This document shows, in pieces, positions 4,212 through 25,046 of a DNA stretch of 64,000 bases. The DNA is taken from the NCBI GenBank assembly GCA_021324435.1, contig JAJPIZ010000017.1, positions 1 through 64,000 on the forward strand, read 5' to 3'. This DNA is from Anaerolineae bacterium. Lineage in GTDB: Bacteria; Chloroflexota; Anaerolineae; Anaerolineales; Villigracilaceae. Each line of letters opens with the position of its first letter. The stretch's first letter is position 1. Under the pieces are notes generated by a model, which saw only the letters and a program-made list of their open reading frames with translations, ran no database searches and was not told the DNA's origin. The position numbers and the translations under genes are program-made.

Positions 4212-4280
4212 AAGCCACCCGTTAGTGAATCGTAAGGTGAAATTAGGGGAAAATCGGGCCCACTAGTACTTATTTCCTAG

Positions 4281-4309
4281 TTGACTTTGGGAGGGTGAAT
4301 CCGTATACT
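4281..4309 (+). promoter_or_regulatory. Sigma-70-type promoter of the ubiquitin-like operon
   Basis: TTGACT (4281-4286) and TATACT (4304-4309) are separated by exactly 17 bases. The expected transcription start is near 4316, some 50 bases before the E1 start codon. No other strong promoter is seen inside the seven-gene run that follows. Confidence 0.75.
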
Positions 4310-4319
4310 CGGTGTATCT

Positions 4320-4330
4320 TGGTCTGACCG
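4320..4330 (+). promoter_or_regulatory. Possible GntR/FadR-type operator
   Basis: TGGTCTGACCG matches the TGGTNNNACCA consensus of FadR-subfamily GntR regulators at all but the last base and lies just downstream of the expected transcription start. Because the first gene of the operon begins with a GntR DNA-binding domain, this is a candidate autoregulatory site. This is inference from sequence only. Confidence 0.5.
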
Positions 4331-4365
4331 CCATACCACAGAAAGAGAACAATTTCAGGAAAACC

Positions 4366-6054
4366 ATGAAAATTCAGCCAATTGCACGTAAAACTCTTGC
4401 GGAAACTGTGGCGGGGAAACTAGCCGCTTCCATTTTAGATGGAAGTTTGCAGCCCGGAGCTCACCTTCCTCCGGAGCGCGAACTGATGGGGCAGTTCGGG
4501 ATCAGTCGCTCCACTTTGCGCGAAGCCCTCAAAGGGCTTGAAGAAAATAACCTGATCGAGTCTCGTCCACACGTGGGATGGTTTGCCCGCGCTATAGATG
4601 AGTCAAACATGGCTCAGGCGAAGGAAATGGCTGGAGGAGCGGCGGATACCGCCTCACGTCCCGCGACGAACGAGCCGCCTACCGGACCGTTTCGCGTGCC
4701 CATGGCCGACAAAGCCATCCACATCCCGAACTTGAAAAAAGATCGCCTTGGCACCTTCGAGTTCATCTCGTGGTGGGAGCGCGAGAAAGTTCAGAATGCC
4801 AGAGTGATGGTCATCGGCGCCGGTGCGCTTGGCAATGAAGTTATCAAGAACCTGTCGCTGATGGGCATTGGGAATCTATTTATCGTGGATTTCGACAAAG
4901 TCGAGGCCGCAAATTTGAGCCGCTCCATTTTATTCCGCGAAGGCGACAATAATCGCAGTAAAGCCGAGATCGCCGCGGCCCGCGCCAAATCCATCAACCC
5001 GGATGTACATGTTCAATACTTGAATGGCGATATCACGACTCAATTAGGCCTGGGCATTTTCCGTCGCATGGATGTTGTGATCGGATGTCTCGATAATCGT
5101 GAGGCCCGCCTGGCCGTCAACCGTTTCTGCTATTGGGTCAACAAACCCTGGGTTGACGGAGCGATTCAGGAACTGCTCGGGCTTGTACGCGTCTTTGTGC
5201 CAGGGCAGGGCGCGTGTTACGAATGCACGCTCACCGAGCAGGCTCTGCGCGATCTTTCCATGCGCTATTCGTGCCCATTGCTTGCCCGTCAGAACATTTT
5301 GCTTGGCAAAGTCCCAACCACACCGACCATCGCTTCGATCATCGGCGCAATGCAATCTCAGGAAGCGTTGAAGTTGATCAACGGCATACCGGTCGAGCCG
5401 GGCAAGGTCACGCACTTCAATGGCATGGTCAATGAGATGCACACCACGGCATACTCGCCGCGCGACGACTGTGAAAGCCACTGGACGTACGGCGATATCA
5501 CGGAACTTCCTGCGCGCGCCGAACGCACCACTCTCGCAGATTTGTTGCGCATCGCCCGCGCGGACCTCGGACCGGACGCCATGATCGAGCTTGATCAAGA
5601 GCTGATTACTTCTCTCGAATGCCCGAACTGTCACACGGTCGAGAAAATTCTGCGGCCCTTGAGCGAAGTCACGTTCGAGGCCGGTCATTGCCCGACCTGT
5701 GGCGTGCTTCGCGAATCAACATTGACTCATATCATCACTGGCGAAGAGGACTTCCTGCATCGGACTCTCGCCAGCGTCGGCGTGCCGTCCTTGCATATTC
5801 TGCGCGCACACAATGGCGTTCAATATCGTTTCTATGAATTAACCGGTGACCTCGCCGAAGCTCTTCACTTCCGCCACTTTGAGCCAAAACACGTTGCGCT
5901 GGCTCCTGCAACCCATGAGCCGCAACCCGCCACCAAAAACATACCGACCAGCGGACGCGTACGCATTAAGGGCGAGGCCAAGAGCGACCTAACGATAAAG
6001 CATGTCTCTGCAGAGCCCGTTGGCAGCCGCGTGAAAGTACGTAAATCGAGCTGA
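4366..6054 (+). CDS. GntR-ThiF fusion: E1-like activating enzyme
   Basis: 562 residues in three parts. Residues about 1-75 form a GntR winged helix (LPPERELMGQFGISRSTLREAL, written here only in part: PPERELMGQFGISRSTLREA). Residues about 130-350 form a ThiF/E1 adenylation domain with nucleotide loop GAGALG at 151-156, acidic residue in FIVDFD, the NLSRSILF arginine motif and the GCLDNREAR motif. C284-YE-C287 and later CPNC/CPTC pairs could bind zinc; C303 in RYSC is the best candidate for the thioester cysteine by position relative to MoeB/E1 proteins. The remaining C-terminal part is unassigned. ATG 4366 was chosen for AGGA at 4357-4360. It likely adenylates the C terminus of the ubiquitin-like protein encoded downstream. 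The GntR fusion is unusual. Confidence 0.88.
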   Translation: MKIQPIARKTLAETVAGKLAASILDGSLQPGAHLPPERELMGQFGISRSTLREALKGLEENNLIESRPHVGWFARAIDESNMAQAKEMAGGAADTASRPATNEPPTGPFRVPMADKAIHIPNLKKDRLGTFEFISWWEREKVQNARVMVIGAGALGNEVIKNLSLMGIGNLFIVDFDKVEAANLSRSILFREGDNNRSKAEIAAARAKSINPDVHVQYLNGDITTQLGLGIFRRMDVVIGCLDNREARLAVNRFCYWVNKPWVDGAIQELLGLVRVFVPGQGACYECTLTEQALRDLSMRYSCPLLARQNILLGKVPTTPTIASIIGAMQSQEALKLINGIPVEPGKVTHFNGMVNEMHTTAYSPRDDCESHWTYGDITELPARAERTTLADLLRIARADLGPDAMIELDQELITSLECPNCHTVEKILRPLSEVTFEAGHCPTCGVLRESTLTHIITGEEDFLHRTLASVGVPSLHILRAHNGVQYRFYELTGDLAEALHFRHFEPKHVALAPATHEPQPATKNIPTSGRVRIKGEAKSDLTIKHVSAEPVGSRVKVRKSS

Positions 6055-6058
6055 TGTT

Positions 6059-6970
6059 ATGGCTTATCAAACGACCATGAGTTCATATAACTTCGACCAG
6101 CCCTCTGAGCACTGGCACTTGTTTCGCAAGTTGTCTTTGCTCTTCCTGCTGATTGTTGCGATTGCATTGGGCCTTGTAATTCTGTCCCGTCAGAAGACAG
6201 GTATTCCGTTGTTGTGGTTCAACCTGCTGGCGGACGCCGGTCTCGGGTTGATTGCTGGAGCCGGGTCGCGCATTCTTCTGCGTCAACGGAACGGATTCAT
6301 TCGCGGGCTGGCCTCCGCCGCGATGGCCATCGTTGGCCTGGTAGTGCTTGGCTATTTCACCGACTGGAAAAGCGGTATCGGCCCATTGCAATTTGTGGGG
6401 CGAAACGCGGCGAATTGGAACAGACTGTCTCATGCTGTTTCATCGCTCGATTGGAACAACACTATTCGTTACCTGCGCGTTGATCGATTCGATGTGAATT
6501 GGTTTGCTTTGGCGCACATGATGATCGCCGTTGATGCATCGTGGATCGCATTACGAGCCTGGAATCACTCCAACGCGCGCATGATCGAGCCATCGGTATC
6601 GTCACATGTGCGGAGTCGCAGGCGAGCGGCGCGTACTTCACCGAGTTTGGCCGTGGCTGTGACGCCACATGTCCCAGCGGTGCAGAGAGTCGGTGTGCCA
6701 GCGGCAGGTTCGAGGTCCCGCGTGAAACGCAGAAAGCCCGAACGCGTCAAGTCATCCGGAGGATCATCCCGCTCCAGAGCATGGAATCCATTGCGCCGCA
6801 AACCTGAAGTTCAATTGGCAGTTTACGAGGAACATCGTTGTCCCTATTGTCTTGAACCTGTGAAACGCAACGATCCGCGCGGAACAGTTGAATGCGACAT
6901 TTGCCATACCCTGCATCACAAAGATTGCTGGGATATCACTGGCTCCTGCCAGGTGCCCCATCTCAACTAA
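6059..6970 (+). CDS. Membrane protein with C-terminal RING-like zinc finger (E3-like)
   Basis: 303 residues, starting 4 bases after the E1 stop. Three or four hydrophobic segments lie in the first half (about 24-43, 57-75, 83-100, and a weaker one near 150-165). Then comes a Ser/Arg-rich linker of about 80 residues, and a final treble-clef: CPYC (261-264), CDIC (279-282), H286/H287, C290 and C297, with H301 possible as eighth ligand. This spacing is that of prokaryotic RING-finger domains found beside E1/E2 genes. It would hold an E3-like ligase or adaptor at the membrane with the finger facing the cytoplasm. No enzymatic function can be proven from sequence. Confidence 0.8.
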   Translation: MAYQTTMSSYNFDQPSEHWHLFRKLSLLFLLIVAIALGLVILSRQKTGIPLLWFNLLADAGLGLIAGAGSRILLRQRNGFIRGLASAAMAIVGLVVLGYFTDWKSGIGPLQFVGRNAANWNRLSHAVSSLDWNNTIRYLRVDRFDVNWFALAHMMIAVDASWIALRAWNHSNARMIEPSVSSHVRSRRRAARTSPSLAVAVTPHVPAVQRVGVPAAGSRSRVKRRKPERVKSSGGSSRSRAWNPLRRKPEVQLAVYEEHRCPYCLEPVKRNDPRGTVECDICHTLHHKDCWDITGSCQVPHLN

Positions 6971-6985
6971 TTTTGGAGGAAACCC

Positions 6986-7888
6986 ATGCCTGATTTGAAT
7001 GTAACCCTCGTTTTACCCAGCGGTGGAGCACGTACCGCTGAAGTGCCGGATGATGTTCCGACCAAGGATTTGATGGCGGAATTCATCTCCTTGTTGCAAT
7101 TGCCCACTACGGGTCCGGATGGGCGGCCGATGACATATCGCCTTGACAGCAAAGCGCTCGGCCGCGAGTTAACCGAGGGCGAGACCCTCTCCGCGGCGGG
7201 CATCCCGGACAATGATCGTTTGATGATAACAGCGGACATTACAGCCGGGGCCGGCAACGTTGTGGCCGAAAGTCCGCGCATGAGGCGCCTGAAAGCCGAC
7301 CAAAAATTGATGCAGGAATTGGCCGCGCAGTCCAATTTGATCAGTTTTGTCGCGCACTCGCCGCGCCCCAATCTGCCGCCTGAGCGTTACATCGTGACCT
7401 TTAAGTGCAAGAGTATTGCCAACGTGGATCGGCAGGGTAACCCGCAGTTCAGCGATCATCATCAGGTGGAGATTTATCTCCATAACCAATATCCGCAACG
7501 CTGGCCCGGCATGAAATGGCTGACGCCGATCTGGCATCCGAACATCAATCACTTGAACGGAAGTGTTTGTATTGACGCCGCCTGGTGGACGGCCAGCCGC
7601 TCTTTGGACAGACTGGTGGTTATGCTGGGCGAGATGTTGCAATACAAAAACTATCATGATGATCCCACCAAACCACCGTTCCCATGGGACCCTGAGGCGG
7701 CGCGCTGGAGCCGGGAATATCGCAAGAAACACCCGAACATTTTCCCGGTGGACACGCGAGAGTTGCTCCACGCAGAGCGCGTGAAATTCAGCACTGGCGG
7801 TCAGGACAATAAGAAACCAAAGATTACGCTGACCAGCCCCACTGCTTCCAAGCCCGCCGCCAAGGCGAAAGTCCACATCAAGAAGTAG
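6986..7888 (+). CDS. E2-like ubiquitin-conjugating enzyme with N-terminal ubiquitin-like domain
   Basis: 300 residues. Residues 1-85 are a YukD-like ubiquitin fold almost repeated in the next gene (62 of 83 aligned positions identical by hand count). Residues about 95-245 are a UBC domain: PPERYIVTFKCKS, VEIYLHNQYP, TPIWHPNIN with HPN at 184-186, and active-site C195 in GSVCI, nine residues after the HPN Asn, as in eukaryotic E2s. The tail is Lys-rich. It should receive the ubiquitin-like protein from the E1 as a thioester. GGAGG at 6974-6978 precedes ATG 6986. Confidence 0.9.
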   Translation: MPDLNVTLVLPSGGARTAEVPDDVPTKDLMAEFISLLQLPTTGPDGRPMTYRLDSKALGRELTEGETLSAAGIPDNDRLMITADITAGAGNVVAESPRMRRLKADQKLMQELAAQSNLISFVAHSPRPNLPPERYIVTFKCKSIANVDRQGNPQFSDHHQVEIYLHNQYPQRWPGMKWLTPIWHPNINHLNGSVCIDAAWWTASRSLDRLVVMLGEMLQYKNYHDDPTKPPFPWDPEAARWSREYRKKHPNIFPVDTRELLHAERVKFSTGGQDNKKPKITLTSPTASKPAAKAKVHIKK

Positions 7889-7958
7889 CTATTTTCCCGC
7901 GGTGCAAACCGGTATTGCAGAAAGTCTAGATCGTCAATCTCAGAAAGGAGAATTTACC

Positions 7959-8225
7959 ATGTCAGATGTACCTGTCACCATTGTGCTCCCCTCGGGAGGC
8001 ACCCGCAATGCGGAAGTTCCGGATGATGTGCCGGTGAAGGAATTGATTCCTGAATTGACCACCTCGCTGGAACTGCCTGTCACGGGTCCGGATGGACGCG
8101 CTATGTCTTATCGCTTGGACAGCAAAGCGCTCGGCCGCGAATTGAAAGAGGAAGAAACTCTTTCACAGGCCGGTATCCCGCAGAACGACCGGCTGATGAT
8201 GACGGCAGATGTCACTGCCGGCTAA
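7959..8225 (+). CDS. Free ubiquitin-like modifier (YukD-like), ends in Ala-Gly
   Basis: 88 residues, one beta-grasp domain: VTIVLPSGGTRNAEVPDD, a helix around VKELIPELTTSLEL, YRLDSKALGREL and GIPQNDRLMMTADV. It ends ...VTAG, so the mature C terminus is already Gly and needs no trimming. ATG 7959 is set by AAAGGAG at 7944-7950; the frame is open further up but without a ribosome site. It is the probable substrate of the E1 and E2 encoded upstream and of the JAMM protease downstream. Similar domains occur in type VII secretion (YukD/EsaB), but no such secretion genes are nearby. Confidence 0.85.
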   Translation: MSDVPVTIVLPSGGTRNAEVPDDVPVKELIPELTTSLELPVTGPDGRAMSYRLDSKALGRELKEEETLSQAGIPQNDRLMMTADVTAG

Positions 8226-8243
8226 CCCAGCCCCGATAACCCT

Positions 8244-8285
8244 CCCTCACCTCGTCTTGTTGTCGCTCAACCGGGCGGGTGAGGG
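8244..8285 (+). repeat. CCCTCACC...GGTGAGGG hairpin
   Basis: CCCTCACC (8244-8251) pairs with GGTGAGGG (8278-8285) between the ubiquitin-like gene and the JAMM gene. Similar CCTCACCC/GGGTGAGG elements are at 34380-34420 and 46149-46230, so it looks like a dispersed repeat. It may slow or protect the operon mRNA here. Confidence 0.5.
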
Positions 8286-8296
8286 CGGGACCTCCT

Positions 8297-8950
8297 ATGA
8301 ATTCGCGACTACGCATTAACGTTTTACCTTTCGATATGAACCAGCCTATTGCCATTCCACTTCCTACCAAAACAGCCAGTCGCTGGAACTCGCCTTATGA
8401 CGAAGCAGGGCTGAGTCCATTGGTTTCCGTGTTTATGACTCAGCCGGCGTACAGCCGCATCTGTGTTCACTCTGTGAGCGATATGAAGAATGAGGTGGGC
8501 GGAATCCTTGTGGGGCAATGGTGCATGAATGGGAACGGAGAGCAGTTTGTTGTTGTTGAGCATGCTTTGCCAGCCCGTTACACGCGGCAGGGCAGCGTCT
8601 ATTTGACATTTACCCAGGAAAGCCTGGTTGACATTCACGATCAGATTGATGCCAATTACAAAGGTCAGAAGATCGTAGGGTGGTACCACACACACCCAAG
8701 CATGGGCGTTTTTCTTTCACATTACGACACCTGGTTACATAATAACTTTTTCCCCGAACCCTGGCAGGTGGCGCTTGTCGTTGAACCCGTTTCTGCAACC
8801 GGTGGGTTTTTCATCCGCCAGAAAAATGGCGTGCTTGATCCCACCCGGTATTATGGCTTCTATGAACTGGACGGAAATTATGGCCGTAGCATGGTTTATT
8901 GGACCAACCTCAACCAGTTTGAAGAAGCGGAAGGAGATAATTCCAAATGA
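8297..8950 (+). CDS. JAMM/JAB1-family metalloprotease (deconjugase-like)
   Basis: 217 residues. The JAMM motif is complete: E66 in NEVGGILVG, then H131-T-H133-P, S141 and D144 in the HTHPSMGVFLSHYD stretch, the zinc ligands and catalytic residues of isopeptidases such as AMSH and Rpn11. It could cut the ubiquitin-like protein from targets; since that protein already ends in Gly, a maturation role is less needed. I prefer ATG 8297; GTG 8279 lies in the repeat. The stop overlaps the next start (ATGA at 8947-8950), so translation is coupled. Confidence 0.9.
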   Translation: MNSRLRINVLPFDMNQPIAIPLPTKTASRWNSPYDEAGLSPLVSVFMTQPAYSRICVHSVSDMKNEVGGILVGQWCMNGNGEQFVVVEHALPARYTRQGSVYLTFTQESLVDIHDQIDANYKGQKIVGWYHTHPSMGVFLSHYDTWLHNNFFPEPWQVALVVEPVSATGGFFIRQKNGVLDPTRYYGFYELDGNYGRSMVYWTNLNQFEEAEGDNSK

Positions 8951-9798
8951 GTAGAAGAATGCGTACGTATTTCTACGCCGTGCTCGGCGCGCTGGGCGGT
9001 TTGTTTGCATGGCAAGTCAGCAATGTACTCGGCCTGTCGTTCACTGGCGCCTTTTATATCAATGTGCTGGTCGTTGGCGCCCTGGTCGGTGTTTTGATTG
9101 GCCTGTTCATCGGCATCACGGAAGGCGCTTTAACTCTCAACCCCGTGCTGGCAGTCAAAGCAGGGCTGGTAGGTGGCCTGGTCGGAGCGGCCGGAGGTCT
9201 GGGCCTGGTGCTGGGTGAGTTTCTCTTCCAGAAAGTCGGCGCCGGCGTTCTCGGCCGCGCTCTTGGCTGGGGCGTCTTCGGCGCGATGATCGGTTTAGCG
9301 GAAGGATTCGTTGGTCGAAGTGAGATCTGGAAGCCGACGCTCGGCGGATTTATTGGTGGAGCGTTGGGCGGCGCCTTGCTCGAACTGGCGCGCGTCCAAC
9401 TGAACCTGGTCACCGGCAAGGCCGTTGGCATGGTGGTTTTGGGAGCGGCCATTGGGTTGTTCATCTCGTTGATCGTCGTTACGCTGTCGCGCGCCTGGCT
9501 CGAAGTCACCTCGGGCAAACTGAAAGGCACCGAGTTCATCCTCGATAAATTCATGCACGCCGGTGGACCCGCCATCGCCATTGGCAGTTCGCCTTTGAAA
9601 TCCGAGATCGTTTTGCCTGATCCGGATATTGCCCCTCAACATGCCATGCTTACCGGAGACGGCGCCCAATTTACTGTCAAAGACATGAGCCTCTCAGGCA
9701 CATTCATTAACAACAAGAAGATCGAACGCGCTCAACTTGTTAATGGACAAAAAATCCGCATGGGCAATACTGAGATGGTTTATCACGAAAAGAGGTAG
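8947..9798 (+). CDS. Polytopic membrane protein with C-terminal FHA domain
   Basis: 283 residues. The first 185 or so are a Gly-rich run of about six hydrophobic segments with many GxxxG pairs. The last 90 form an FHA phosphopeptide-binding domain: IAIGSSPLKSEIVLPD, APQHAML (the S/H contact region), VKDMSLSGTFINNKKI and LVNGQKIRMGNTEMVYH. FHA domains bind phosphothreonine. It may gather phosphorylated clients at the membrane for the conjugation machinery, but no kinase is encoded in the operon. It overlaps the JAMM gene by 4 bases and is followed after 2 bases by the VWA gene. Confidence 0.85.
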   Translation: MSRRMRTYFYAVLGALGGLFAWQVSNVLGLSFTGAFYINVLVVGALVGVLIGLFIGITEGALTLNPVLAVKAGLVGGLVGAAGGLGLVLGEFLFQKVGAGVLGRALGWGVFGAMIGLAEGFVGRSEIWKPTLGGFIGGALGGALLELARVQLNLVTGKAVGMVVLGAAIGLFISLIVVTLSRAWLEVTSGKLKGTEFILDKFMHAGGPAIAIGSSPLKSEIVLPDPDIAPQHAMLTGDGAQFTVKDMSLSGTFINNKKIERAQLVNGQKIRMGNTEMVYHEKR

Positions 9799-9800
9799 CC

Positions 9801-10934
9801 ATGCGTAAAATTTTCCGCATCGTTCTGACCCTGAGCCTGTTTCTTGTTCTGACGCTTTGGTCTGCCCCGGCCACTTTTGCTCAGACCGGGGGCACGCAGG
9901 TTCATATTACACAAGTGGATAATTCCCAATTCCCGCAGGTGACGGTCTATGTTTCCGTAACCGACGCGTCCGGCCAACCGGTCGGTGTTGATCCGAACAC
10001 CATTCAGATTTCTGAAAATGGTCAGGTCATGCAACCGACCAATGTGAGCGGTGGCGGCCAAGGCGGCATTGGTCCATTGACAACCATGCTGGTCATGGAT
10101 GTTTCTGGAAGCATGGACAAAAACGGCAAGATTGACGGCGCCAAAGCTGCCGCCAAAGCCTATGTGGATCAAATGCGTCCTGAAGATCAAGCCGGCATCA
10201 TGGTTTACAACACGCGAACGACTTATCTTCAGCCTCTCACCACGGATCATGCTGTTTTGAACAGCGCGATTGATAGCATCAAGACCGGTGGAGACACTGC
10301 AATGTATGACGCGCTGATCGCGGCGGAAGAGGCCCTCAAAGATGTTACAGGCCGCAAGGCGGTAATCGTCGTCACCGACGGGCTGGACAACAGCAGTTCT
10401 CACAAAGCAGATGATGTGATTACTGGAATCGGTCCGGCTGGTCTTTCCATCTCTACCATCGGCTTGGGCGATGCCAGCACAAAATCGCAACAAGGATTGG
10501 ATGAAGCCGGGCTTAAGTCTCTGGCCCAGCAGGCTGGCGGTGCATACAGTTACGCTGGTGACTCTGCCGCTCTTTCTGCCTTGTTCCAATTGTATGGCCG
10601 CGCTTTGCAGAACGAGTATGCCATCACATACACCTCGCCCTCTAATTTGCGCGATGGTGTAAATCGCTCTCTAACTGTATCTCTTGTGAATGCTGGAGTT
10701 TCCGCTAACAGCCAGTACAACCCCGGCGGGGTTCTGCCTGAAGTGTCAACCCAGTCATGGCCGCTGTTTGCGGGTATCTTGGTGATTCTGCTTGCATTGC
10801 TCGCCGTGCCCATGCTGGCGAGTAAAGGATTGCAACTCTTTAGCGGCAGTGGCGGCGGCTTCCGCAAGAAGGGCCGCGTGAAGCTTGGTGAAGCGCCTGG
10901 CAGTTCTGCCAAAGGCCGTGTCAAAATGAGATAG
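9801..10934 (+). CDS. Secreted/anchored VWA-domain protein
   Basis: 377 residues. A signal peptide (1-27, ending TFA) is followed by a beta-rich N-terminal region and a von Willebrand A domain (about 94-275) with an intact metal site D100-x-S102-x-S104 in DVSGSMDKNG and a TDGLDNSSS stretch. One membrane helix near 317-338 and a basic tail with repeated GRVK follow, so the VWA domain should lie outside the cytoplasm. It is the last gene of the operon. Its link to the conjugation proteins is by operon structure only. Confidence 0.85.
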   Translation: MRKIFRIVLTLSLFLVLTLWSAPATFAQTGGTQVHITQVDNSQFPQVTVYVSVTDASGQPVGVDPNTIQISENGQVMQPTNVSGGGQGGIGPLTTMLVMDVSGSMDKNGKIDGAKAAAKAYVDQMRPEDQAGIMVYNTRTTYLQPLTTDHAVLNSAIDSIKTGGDTAMYDALIAAEEALKDVTGRKAVIVVTDGLDNSSSHKADDVITGIGPAGLSISTIGLGDASTKSQQGLDEAGLKSLAQQAGGAYSYAGDSAALSALFQLYGRALQNEYAITYTSPSNLRDGVNRSLTVSLVNAGVSANSQYNPGGVLPEVSTQSWPLFAGILVILLALLAVPMLASKGLQLFSGSGGGFRKKGRVKLGEAPGSSAKGRVKMR

Positions 10935-10940
10935 AAAAAT

Positions 10941-10976
10941 AAAAAATCAGGCTTCAGATCTGAAGCCTGATTTTTT
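10941..10976. terminator. Palindromic terminator shared by the VWA operon and lexA
   Basis: A perfect 36-base palindrome: the 18-base arms 10941-10958 and 10959-10976 are exact complements, with A and T runs on both sides. It can end transcription from both convergent units. Confidence 0.9.
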
Positions 10977-10990
10977 GATTCTTTTCTGAA

Positions 10991-11994: not shown

Positions 11995-12384
11995 ATGTAC
12001 CCAGCACTTACCCGTTGTCCAGTTTGTAATAGCGAGATGAACGTCACTCGTTTGCATTGTCCATCATGCGACACAGTTGTGGAAGGTCGTTTCACTGCCG
12101 GGCATTTTGCCAATCTTTCGCCCGAACAAATGGATTTTATCTTCACCTTTGTGCGCTGTGAGGGTAAATTGACTCGCATGGAATCAGAACTCAATTTATC
12201 TTATCCAACCATTCGCAACCGTTTGCATGAGGTCATCCGCGCGCTGGGATATGAGCCGGGCAAGGATGAATCGCTCGAAATCAGTGATGAAAAGCGGCGC
12301 GCAGTGCTTGAAGATTTGGACTCCGGCAAGATCTCAGCAGAAAATGCCATGCGCATCTTGCGCGGCGAGGAGGAGAGGGAATGA
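11995..12384 (+). CDS. DUF2089-family regulator
   Basis: 129 residues. An N-terminal zinc ribbon has CPVC (8-11) and CPSC (22-25); a helix-turn-helix like sigma region 4 follows (LTRMESELNLSYPTIRNRL). The last 30 residues are a helical hairpin (KRRAVLEDLDSGKISAENAM) of the kind repeated in the next three genes. This is the DUF2089 layout, thought to be a transcription regulator. GCAAGGAG at 11980-11987 precedes ATG. Its stop overlaps the next start (ATGA, 12381-12384). Confidence 0.85.
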   Translation: MYPALTRCPVCNSEMNVTRLHCPSCDTVVEGRFTAGHFANLSPEQMDFIFTFVRCEGKLTRMESELNLSYPTIRNRLHEVIRALGYEPGKDESLEISDEKRRAVLEDLDSGKISAENAMRILRGEEERE

Positions 12385-13127
12385 CCACTCAAACATTTTC
12401 CACTGGGGCCAATCCCTCGATCCAAATCGGAAATGTTGCGGGCGACCTGATTGTGACCGGTTGGGATCGCTCCGAGGTTGAAGCCCGCGGAGATGAAATC
12501 CGTCAGACCCAAACCGGTAGCGCGCTTTCTTTTTCCTCTTCGGGAGATTTGATTCTTTCCGTACCGCGTGGTTCGACAATCACGCTGGGATATGTGGCTG
12601 GTGATGTGAAACTAGAAGATATGAATGGTGCGATCACAGTATCGTTTGTAGGAGGAGACGCCATCTTGCGGAATCTTAGCGGTCAGGTCTCGATGGCCGG
12701 CGCGATTGGCGGCGATGTTCAAATGGAGAATGTCGGCAAGATCAGTATGAGCGCCGGTAAGAGCGGATTGGACACGGATCTGTCAGAGCGCATTCGAAGC
12801 CGCATGGAGGAAGCCAAACGCCATGCAGAGCGTAAAATGCGCGATGCCGAACAAAAGATTCGCCGCGCGGAAATCAAGATTCAAAATGCAGAACGTAAGC
12901 GCCGCGGTGTCCCGCCCATTCCGCCCGTACCTCCAATCCCACCTATGCCTCCACAAGCAAGAAAATTTGGCCGCTTCCATTTCGCTGTTGATCCATCAGG
13001 CGTTAATGAAACCAGACAAACTGTCTCTGATGAAGAGCGCATGGTCATATTGAAAATGTTGCAGGAAAAGAAAATTAATTCCGAAGAGGCCGAGAAACTG
13101 CTGGCCGCGCTGGAAGGAGGCTCATAA
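12381..13127 (+). CDS. DUF4097-like beta-repeat protein with C-terminal SHOCT-like hairpin
   Basis: 248 residues. The first 115 or so are short beta repeats (GNVAGDLIVTGWD, GYVAGDVKLEDM, GAIGGDVQMENV) like DUF4097 or bactofilin-type helices. Then come a charged coiled segment (ERIRSRMEEAKRHAERK) and a Pro-rich linker of PPIPPVPPIPP type. The final hairpin DEERMVILKMLQEKKINSEE is shared with its neighbours. No signal peptide is visible, so it should be cytoplasmic. Function unknown; the YvlB-type proteins of Firmicutes have a similar combination. Confidence 0.7.
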   Translation: MTTQTFSTGANPSIQIGNVAGDLIVTGWDRSEVEARGDEIRQTQTGSALSFSSSGDLILSVPRGSTITLGYVAGDVKLEDMNGAITVSFVGGDAILRNLSGQVSMAGAIGGDVQMENVGKISMSAGKSGLDTDLSERIRSRMEEAKRHAERKMRDAEQKIRRAEIKIQNAERKRRGVPPIPPVPPIPPMPPQARKFGRFHFAVDPSGVNETRQTVSDEERMVILKMLQEKKINSEEAEKLLAALEGGS

Positions 13128-13768
13128 TGTCTTCTGAAGAACGGACACAGATTCTCAAGATGGTTGAGAATGGGAAGATCAGCGCGGAAGAAGCCATGAA
13201 GCTGATCAAAGTGCTGGATGAGTCTTCCGCCGAGATGGAGATCATCGAAACCGCGCCCGCTTCTTCGTCCGGACCCGAAGCGGATTCTCAATCCAAAAAA
13301 ACTCCCGCTCCCGAATTTGAAAAAGTCGCCAGCCAGGCGCGTCGCTTGTGGCAAATTCCGTTGTGGGCCGGGGTCGGGATCACAATCTTTTCTGCTTATT
13401 GGCTTTACATGCTGGTCAACGCGTCGAATTTTGGATTTTGGTTTTATTGCGCATGGATTCCGCTTCTATTCGGCGTTTTATTGCTGGGATTGTTTGCAAG
13501 TGGTCGGACTGCGCGCTGGCTTTATGTAAAAGTGCAACAGCCGGAGGGCAGTGACGGGCCTCGCAACCTCACCCTCGGATTCCCGCTTCCTCTTGGGTTT
13601 GCGGCCTGGTTCCTGCGTCATTTTGGGCACTATATCGAAGGTATGGATCGCACTGTTGCGGATGAGGTGATACAACTTCTTTCAACCGGGTTTTCATCGA
13701 AGGAACCTTTGATCGTAAATGTGGATGAGGGCGAGCACGGCGAACGCGTGCAGGTTTATATTGGCTAG
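13127..13768 (+). CDS. SHOCT-like hairpin protein with two membrane segments
   Basis: 213 residues. The first 35 form the same helical hairpin (EERTQILKMVENGKISAEEA). Two hydrophobic spans follow (about 82-100 and 107-125), then a soluble tail with VDEGEHGERVQVYIG. It starts on the stop of the previous gene (TAATG). The tail's VNVDEGEHGERV resembles the VTDDEDGEHVEIYVD end of the next gene, so the two probably share the C-terminal domain too. Function unknown. Confidence 0.7.
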   Translation: MSSEERTQILKMVENGKISAEEAMKLIKVLDESSAEMEIIETAPASSSGPEADSQSKKTPAPEFEKVASQARRLWQIPLWAGVGITIFSAYWLYMLVNASNFGFWFYCAWIPLLFGVLLLGLFASGRTARWLYVKVQQPEGSDGPRNLTLGFPLPLGFAAWFLRHFGHYIEGMDRTVADEVIQLLSTGFSSKEPLIVNVDEGEHGERVQVYIG

Positions 13769-24734: not shown

Positions 24735-25022
24735 CTGTAATTTGACCTGAGAGATTCATTTAGTTTGATAGTTACATAGTTTTGTAGTTACGTAGTTCAA
24801 CTATCTAAACTACCCAGCTATCAAACTACCGAACTAAATTTTCACCGTCGGTGTCTCGTGTGAGACTTTCCAGAGTGATTCGGAGACAGGGTCCTTTTGC
24901 CTGAGAGTTTCGTCCGGTTTCGCCTGTTCCGGATTTGCACCTTCGGCGCTCTGATCGTAGTGACGACTTCGGTCGTCTACGAGCGACCAACGTCGCTACT
25001 ACCATCTACGAGTCTCTTCCCT
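24735..25022 (-). promoter_or_regulatory. Tandem glycine riboswitch
   Basis: Read on the minus strand, two aptamers follow each other. The first has GAAGAGACTC, GCGCCGAAGGTGCAAATCC and ACTCTCAGGCAAAAGGACC; the second has CTCTGGAAAGTCTC, ACACCGACGGTGAAAA and TCTCTCAGGTCAAATTACAG. These are the conserved blocks of the glycine aptamer pair. Both carry large extra hairpins (see separate entry and finding). Position before gcvH is classical. Confidence 0.88.
24757..24838 (-). repeat. TAGTT-type hairpin inside the second glycine aptamer
   Basis: About 80 bases with ends ATTTAGTT and AACTAAAT, inner TAGTTTGATAG matching CTATCAAACTA, and units such as GTAACTAC. It sits in the third helix of aptamer 2 and resembles 306-372. 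Confidence 0.6.
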
Positions 25023-25046
25023 GCCGTCCGTTCAATTGTTGCTTCC

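Follow-up and report, generated by a model that had tools for sequence, protein, structure and literature searches.

A seven-gene operon in Anaerolineae predicted to encode an autoregulated, membrane-anchored ubiquitin-like conjugation pathway

Analysis of a 64,000-nucleotide (nt) stretch of contig JAJPIZ010000017.1 from an Anaerolineae bacterium (hereafter the window, in whose forward-strand positions all coordinates are given) has revealed an operon at 4281-10977, which likely encodes a self-contained, autoregulated and membrane-anchored ubiquitin-like conjugation pathway. Seven co-directional open reading frames (ORFs), with spacings of 71 bases at most, lie between one promoter-like site and one terminator. 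An earlier reading of the letters of this DNA (the sequence-only reading) had proposed these genes, with the promoter and the terminator, in this order, and all of them were found at the claimed place; the parts in detail are:

4281..4309, forward strand: promoter TTGACT-17-TATACT, upstream of E1
4320..4338, forward strand: predicted GntR-type operator TGGTCTGACCGCCATACCA, immediately 3' of the -10
4366..6054, forward strand: E1 (activating enzyme), with a GntR winged helix at residues 11-73 and a ThiF adenylation domain at 133-369 that contains C303; its C-terminal part has zinc-ribbon cysteines (about 375-495) and a disordered basic tail (497-562)
6059..6970, forward strand: RING-type protein with two hydrophobic segments (probable transmembrane, TM) and a zinc-binding C-terminus
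6986..7888, forward strand: fusion of a ubiquitin-like protein (Ubl) with an E2 (conjugating enzyme); YukD-like Ubl at residues 1-88 ending in TAG, UBC domain with HPN 184-186 and C195, basic disordered tail
7959..8225, forward strand: free Ubl of 88 residues with TAG at the C-terminus
8297..8950, forward strand: JAMM/MPN+ metalloprotease with E66, H131, H133, S141 and D144
8947..9798, forward strand: FHA protein with three hydrophobic segments (probable TM) and, at the C-terminus, an FHA domain in which GS takes the place of the usual GR
9801..10934, forward strand: VWA protein with a probable signal peptide (hydrophobic N-terminus), an intact metal ion-dependent adhesion site (MIDAS), a probable TM segment (322-340) and a basic tail ending in GRVKMR
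10940..10977, forward strand: intrinsic terminator with a 17-bp stem, between VWA and a convergent lexA

The active-site residues named by the sequence-only reading were likewise correct, namely GAGALG (151-156) and C303 in the E1 read from the ATG at 4366, HPN and C195 in the Ubl-E2 fusion, and E66, H131, H133 and D144 in the JAMM protein. Profile searches against Pfam matched ThiF (5e-56) and GntR (2.8e-19) in the E1, UQ_con (4.6e-11) and YukD (2.2e-9) in the Ubl-E2 fusion, YukD (2.3e-12) in the free Ubl, JAB (3.8e-9) in the JAMM protein, FHA (8.1e-13) in the FHA protein and VWA_2 (1.5e-18) in the VWA protein, together with a match to Prok-RING_1 below the Pfam cut-off in the RING-type protein. 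Four elements came in addition to what the earlier reading had described: the GntR winged helix as the fusion partner of the E1, the operator at the promoter, a motif shared by three protein tails and a recurrent chromosomal slot between rplL and lexA.

Comparison with the best 80 of 321 relatives from a scan of named genomes (loci, genomes and families carry our own L, G and f numbers) showed all seven genes in the same order in 67/80; of the other 13, 12 lie on contigs that break off within the operon, and the last one, L123, has an ORF of the RING cluster at the place where tblastn missed the RING gene. Gene order in these relatives thus showed no departure as far as the contigs extend, and it is likewise kept in the loci read from the bacterium's own family, in agreement with the earlier proposal that activating, conjugating, ligase-like and removing functions belong together with FHA and VWA proteins as real members. 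Such conservation excludes a chance assembly, and because the genes flanking E1 to VWA differ between groups of relatives, we take the unit to run from E1 to VWA. Record titles of the 80 name Anaerolineae, Anaerolineales, Anaerolineaceae, Anaerolinea, Pelolinea, Leptolinea, Candidatus Villigracilaceae or, in some cases, nothing narrower than Chloroflexi/Chloroflexota, and the strains that carry relatives include Pelolinea submarina MO-CFX1, Leptolinea tardivitalis YMTK-2 and Leptolinea sp. HRD-7.

The families and the invariance of the catalytic residues make it very probable that the products would carry out E1 to E2 to substrate chemistry, with reversal by the JAMM protein. All 44 aligned E1s share GAGALG and C303, all 45 aligned Ubl-E2 fusions share HPN and C195, and E66, H131, H133, S141 and D144 are invariant in 76/76 JAMM proteins (one set of alignments left out the frameshifted L079, L053, and the divergent L080/L081 and L043/L044). 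By sequence, the closest solved relatives of the E1 are UBA7, UBA1 and SAE2, those of the E2 are UBE2K structures in which HPN and the catalytic cysteine align, and those of the JAMM protein are Caldiarchaeum Rpn11 followed by RPN11, AMSH and CSN5. AlphaFold models were built from the 44-sequence (E1) and 45-sequence (Ubl-E2) alignments. The E1 model (mean predicted local distance difference test score, pLDDT, 78.9; predicted template modelling score, pTM, 0.65) has confident folded parts and a low-confidence tail at 497-562, and by fold it resembles MoeB, ThiF, UBA3 and SAE2 (Z 27-30 over about 220 residues). Several full-length E1 entries in this comparison extend to model residue 494-495 (root-mean-square deviation, rmsd, 3.8-8.0), which suggests that residues 375-495 may form an E1-type ubiquitin-fold domain; a sequence search of the PDB with the isolated C-terminal domain gave no matches. 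The Ubl-E2 model (mean pLDDT 78.8, pTM 0.56) is also confident in its folded parts, with low confidence in the tail at 265-300; EccD, ubiquitin and ISG15 match its Ubl fold at Z 11-12, EccD being nearest, in a match list that barely probes the E2 part. That the E1 may activate the Ubl is supported by the conserved residues, which are the whole basis for it.

The two Ubl copies deserve separate attention. The free Ubl terminates in TAG in 75/76 complete copies, the remaining copy ending in TAGGR, and TAG is kept in 77/78 of the E2-fused copies (the 78th is without readable translation), followed in 76/77 by A, G or S, though this is not a C-terminus there. We surmise that the kept TAG in the fusion may reflect a precursor cleavable by the JAMM protein or a chargeable decoy, either of which would show it. 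Lys56 is the sole lysine invariant across 74 full-length free Ubls and is therewith a candidate site for chain formation. Over 20 genomes, the mean divergence of the free Ubl (8.9%) was the lowest of all operon proteins, vs. 9.5% for L11, 19.4% for L1, 21.6% for E1 and 60% for the RING protein; low divergence is the expectation for a modifier with many partners. The mean net charge of the free Ubl is -8.

As to control of the operon, TTGAY-(16-19)-TAnnnT was found upstream of E1 in 48/66 relatives (the 66 upstream regions exclude L126, with too little upstream sequence, and L153, which shares a contig with L051, a locus that has the site), and a dyad with the consensus TGGTCTGACCAnCATACCA overlaps the promoter. 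The window copy at 4320-4338 is the only such site in the window, where it is seen on both strands. Within 200 bases upstream of E1, the pattern GGTCNGACC was present in 56/66 relatives, with a density of 4.06/kb vs. 0.023/kb elsewhere in the loci, while a looser pattern, GGTNNNACC, was found in 62/66. In an anchored alignment of the window and 65 relatives (L163 also left out), GGT and AC occupied fixed positions in 66/66, a count biased towards the dyad since the best dyad match served as the anchor.

Presence of the dyad follows the presence of the GntR domain. In a second set of loci, it was found in 8/9 with a GntR-E1 vs. 1/16 with a GntR-less E1 (Fisher p 7e-5); four of the nine GntR loci (L051, L052, L218 and L220) overlap the set from which the pattern was derived, and 4/5 of the others have the dyad. 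A scan of 400 genomes of the phylum with the exact consensus returned four matches (G005, G232, G290 and G392), all directly upstream of a GntR-E1, vs. none with the reversed pattern; G232, G290 and G392 overlap the loci that supplied the pattern and G005 lies outside them. In the GntR part of the E1, E37, R38, R48 and R52 are invariant in the 44 aligned sequences, indicating conserved recognition residues. NanR, a GntR relative, matches the winged helix of the E1 and is described as binding GGTATA repeats (PMC8012715), which the outer half-sites in many relatives resemble. Because the dyad at the E1 promoter tracks GntR-E1 genes, we consider it highly likely that the E1 controls its own operon; this control would be repression, given that the site covers the place where transcription is expected to begin. 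We rejected the idea that the operator serves a wider regulon: in 20 genomes, sites with at most one mismatch lay at E1 promoters except for one in the operon-free G112 (one mismatch), and two-mismatch matches away from E1 numbered 14 vs. 20 for the reversed control. As a separate observation, GTAC-(5-8)-CCTA stands ahead of the -35 (4266-4279 in the window) in 22/66 relatives, at 1.85/kb vs. a background of 0.013.

Besides their folded domains, the E1, E2 and VWA proteins share basic tails that carry the motif [KR][VIL][KRH][VILM], for example GRVKLK. Within the last 45 residues, the motif occurred in 58/69 E1s, 78/79 E2s (a count that often includes an RVKL closing the UBC part) and 56/66 VWA proteins, vs. 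averages of 8-11 for shuffled tails, and was found in 0/75 JAMM proteins and 0/70 Ubls; in the linker of the RING protein it occurred in 20/76 vs. 10 for shuffled sequences. When a stricter pattern was applied to the final 11 residues, 36/69 E1s, 59/79 E2s and 45/66 VWA proteins still matched, and none of the other four proteins did. Since the three tails share the same short strand motif, they probably dock on one common partner, for which the acidic free Ubl is our guess.

The remaining proteins would place the pathway at the membrane. Nine Cys/His columns of the RING protein are invariant in 77/77 copies, and the MIDAS residues of the VWA protein (D100, S102, S104, T166 and D193) are intact in 67/67. 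With a hydrophobic N-terminus and one probable TM segment ahead of it, the tail of the VWA protein should be on the cytosolic side. From the RING, FHA and VWA proteins we think it reasonably probable that the substrates are membrane proteins.

Within its own family (f1), the E2 was detected in 40/152 genomes and in 26/88 of the good ones (G481 and G485 have only a divergent system), and in the phylum UQ_con matched in 12/400 genomes, 11 of them above cut-off; the same gene order outside f1 was seen in f3 and f24 (L052, L051). Among 33 family copies (the window and 32 loci; the E2-positive genomes G458, G466, G479, G517 and G526 are excluded from this locus reading), 20 are flanked by rplL and lexA and others are cut by contig ends; neither gene adjoins the operon in L048, L063, L068 and L072, and L045 has lexA present with the rplL region elsewhere. 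Of 20 chosen operon-free family genomes, 19 showed rplL and then lexA without any operon gene between them, the contig of the twentieth ending before lexA. Distances between five operon proteins correlated with those of the linked ribosomal proteins (r=0.79, 0/5000 permutations, 20 genomes) and with those of the unlinked rpoB (r=0.91, 0/5000 permutations, 19 genomes, G461 being without rpoB), and of the 13 rpoB splits supported at 0.9 or more, nine were found again in the operon tree, the same number as in the linked ribosomal tree. As the operon follows rpoB and the ribosomal proteins in distance and shares these rpoB splits, it was inherited mostly vertically within the family and often lost cleanly. 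As a side observation, E2, FHA and VWA lie in pieces in L079 (4901-8984; G486, 78% complete), from sequencing errors or decay.

Sequence comparison establishes the parts of the operon, their conserved residues, the operator, the motif shared by the tails and a mostly vertical descent; conjugation, the direction of regulation, the membrane substrates and the partner of the motif are predictions. Taken together, we propose the following scheme. The E1 would adenylate the C-terminal Gly88 of the free Ubl, and the Ubl thioester would form on C303 of the E1 and then move to C195 of the Ubl-E2 fusion; the membrane RING protein would steer the transfer to lysines on membrane-near proteins; the JAMM protein would take the Ubl off and may also release Ubl from the E2 fusion after TAG. 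The FHA and VWA proteins would act as a membrane scaffold and an outward-facing sensor, with the tails of E1, E2 and VWA probably binding a common partner, which may be the acidic Ubl. By binding the 4320-4338 dyad over the transcription start, the GntR domain would repress the operon, so that the level or loading of the E1 would feed back on E1 synthesis. More tentatively, and with our confidence well short of even, we speculate that the E1 is a promoter-bound repressor reading Ubl loading out as transcription, and that a receptor-like VWA protein recruits E1 and E2 via the tail motif, in a non-defence signalling system of mostly vertical descent for which the E2-fused Ubl is a second, JAMM-releasable source. 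Fusion of an E1 with the regulator of its own transcription would, if true, be a form of control that no ubiquitin system is known to have. In named strains, the seven genes form a defined unit for a predicted bacterial pathway of E1, E2, RING and deconjugase that has its own dedicated Ubl, and through this unit the role of complete bacterial systems outside phage defence becomes testable.

A number of observations weigh against this scheme: 1) for the operator, 10/66 upstream regions are without the exact dyad, among them those of L084-L086, near relatives of the window that carry GGTCTGACT, L219 lacks an exact site despite its GntR domain, and in L233 a site precedes a GntR-less E1 match by about 190 nt; 2) owing to the overlap with the pattern-source loci, the second locus set and the 400-genome scan probe specificity more than fresh discovery, and the window site is itself one base off the scanned consensus, which is why the window is not among the four exact matches; 3) the tail motif was also found in 28/72 FHA proteins vs. 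4.8 for shuffled tails, matches that we think belong to the FHA fold; 4) GS replaces GR in 73/73 FHA domains, whereas classic phosphothreonine-binding FHA domains have a conserved Arg in this motif, so the FHA protein is probably not a classic phosphothreonine reader and phosphothreonine sensing by it found no support; 5) the TM segments were assigned by a simple hydropathy window; 6) the Prok-RING_1 match (2.4e-6) scores 27.8 bits vs. a cut-off of 29.1 bits; 7) L051/L153, on one contig, have an E2 without a fused Ubl, and L223 gave no FHA or VWA match though the stretch continues for about 8 kb; 8) the E2 is absent from 112/152 family genomes and 62/88 good ones, and with most family genomes missing it the operon is dispensable; and 9) the operon tree lacks 4/13 well-supported rpoB splits.

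Bil operons reportedly have a role against phages. By analogy with Bil, or with Cap2/Cap3 of the type II cyclic-oligonucleotide-based anti-phage signalling system (CBASS), the operon could serve anti-phage defence, with the Ubl being joined, upon infection, to a protein of the phage or the host; we regard this as unlikely, though it is the strongest of the alternatives. Those experimentally studied bacterial E1-E2-JAB sets that we found described have an anti-phage role (PMC10097602, PMC11153139), the E1-E2 and JAB models of PADLOC match the ThiF and JAB domains, and the distribution of the operon is patchy. These PADLOC matches are nevertheless to single domains, with none for the RING, Ubl-E2, Ubl, FHA and VWA proteins; at the level of whole proteins, the NCBIfam 6A-MBL cap2_3 model scores 42 bits vs. 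its cut-off of 320; and none of the seven genes encodes a nucleotidyltransferase or a member of a known effector family. Ten flanking proteins from five loci gave a single PADLOC match (a helicase), and the flanking genes in five loci (iron alcohol dehydrogenase, GGDEF, BtpA, GH57, helicase and others) gave no functional hint. The mostly vertical descent, usually in the one slot between rplL and lexA, also speaks against defence, and the E2 had no match in 72,556 plasmid and 50,697 phage records, in which the E1 query found partial ThiF-like stretches in 32 phage records, none spanning 80% of the query. On the absent plasmid and phage E2 matches and the vertical signal, we rejected a mobile defence element.

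Far less probable is a non-covalent Ubl like YukD of type VII secretion, in which the set would build a membrane complex without tagging. Both Ubl copies are YukD-like, their fold is closest to EccD, and experiments cited in Iyer 2006 (PMC1779556) found YukD not to be conjugated; against this, E1, E2 and JAMM show no variation at their catalytic residues across the aligned sets, the Ubl C-terminus is fixed at TAG, and the bacterium's own genome (97% complete) has no match to WXG100 (PF06013) and no other YukD, on which ground a part in type VII secretion was rejected. Tagging for a 20S-type protease is also unlikely, as the same genome gave no PF00227 match for a 20S proteasome or HslV, while the control was found in 10/14 genomes, and a proteasome link was therefore rejected. 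That the E1 acts in MoeB/ThiF-like sulfur transfer for a cofactor, with the other genes accessory, is scarcely credible: MoeB and ThiF are indeed its best fold matches, but its neighbours include a JAMM protein, a RING-type protein and an E2 of UBC type that has HPN and Cys, and some full-length E1s align with it as far as residue 494-495 (rmsd 3.8-8.0).

Returning to the surroundings of the predicted conjugation operon, its rplL side in the window holds nusG, rplK, rplA, rplJ and rplL (assigned by position, nusG also by match), and on the other side the convergent lexA is followed by a DUF2089/SHOCT cluster (11995-13765, a DUF2089 gene and then SHOCT-like genes), relatives of which lie past lexA in 16/20 operon-free loci. 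Elsewhere in the window, a glycine riboswitch lies on the minus strand at 24879-25031 (Rfam, 44.6 bits).

The sequence-only reading had suggested that the combination with FHA and VWA partners may be a distinct type, and this holds, the exceptions being L223 and a sister system of the same class in f9 genomes (L043, L044, L226, L228, L230-L233, L236 and L237). Like the operon, the sister system has a homologous E1 (46-57% identical), Ubl, E2 and JAMM, with TAG at the end of the Ubl in 9/10 (L230 carries an extension). Unlike the operon, it has no GntR, no Ubl fused to E2, no FHA or VWA match and no tail motif (0/12 E1 and 0/10 E2 tails), and it has two JAMM genes where the contig extends far enough, plus a zinc-finger protein. 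In f118/f122, L218, L220, L221 and L222 keep the same order including FHA and VWA and add a second JAMM gene, one JAMM was seen in L219, and L223 (f118) has a GntR-E1, RING, Ubl-E2, Ubl and JAMM. Other arrangements were also noted. L224 (7875-18177) holds a GntR-less E1, two RING-like matches, adjoining Ubl and E2 matches and two JAMMs, with no FHA or VWA match, and two same-family genomes without the seven-gene operon hold divergent sets of E2 and JAMM-JAMM (L080 1-6000 and L081 1-3312), L080 also having an E1 (35% identical) and two E2s.

In the literature, Iyer 2006 (PMC1779556) places YukD with secretion and RING E3s as seemingly eukaryotic, Grau-Bove 2014 (PMC4327156) describes no complete ubiquitin toolkit among the bacteria analysed there, and James 2017 (PMC5654768) reports reconstitution of an archaeal counterpart and mentions examples of complete bacterial operons; Chloroflexi appear in one reference of PMC9192718. 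Searches on GntR with ThiF, ubiquitin in Anaerolineae and Prok-RING with FHA/VWA gave, at title level, no title on the seven-gene operon, and a search made mostly at title level found no published account of an operator for the E1, of a motif common to the tails, of the rule of free and fused TAG or of the history of the slot. Burroughs, Iyer & Aravind reportedly described in 2011 prokaryotic E1-E2-RING-JAB neighbourhoods with a YukD-like Ubl. In that kind, E1, E2, Prok-RING_1, JAB and a YukD-like Ubl occur together as they do here, so the core of the operon is of a kind already known and the operon is a variant of it. What the operon may add to this kind are the GntR operator, the motif of the tails, FHA and VWA as fixed partners, and its history in the lineage. 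Bil (BilABCD, PMC11354881) and CBASS Cap2/Cap3 (PMC10097602) share with the operon bacterial E1, E2-type and JAB proteins; BilA contains two Ubl domains, the CBASS operon serves defence, and the descriptions in these sources mention no RING, FHA, VWA or GntR. With the operon of Caldiarchaeum subterraneum (PMC5654768) it shares Ubl, E1, E2, RING and an Rpn11-like JAMM, for which CsRpn11 (PMC6043591) is the best solved match. Whereas the pro-ubiquitin described for Caldiarchaeum has a C-terminal extension that is cut to GG, the Ubl of the operon ends directly in a single Gly (TAG), and the operon differs further from its archaeal counterpart by the extra Ubl fused to the E2 and by the added FHA and VWA proteins.

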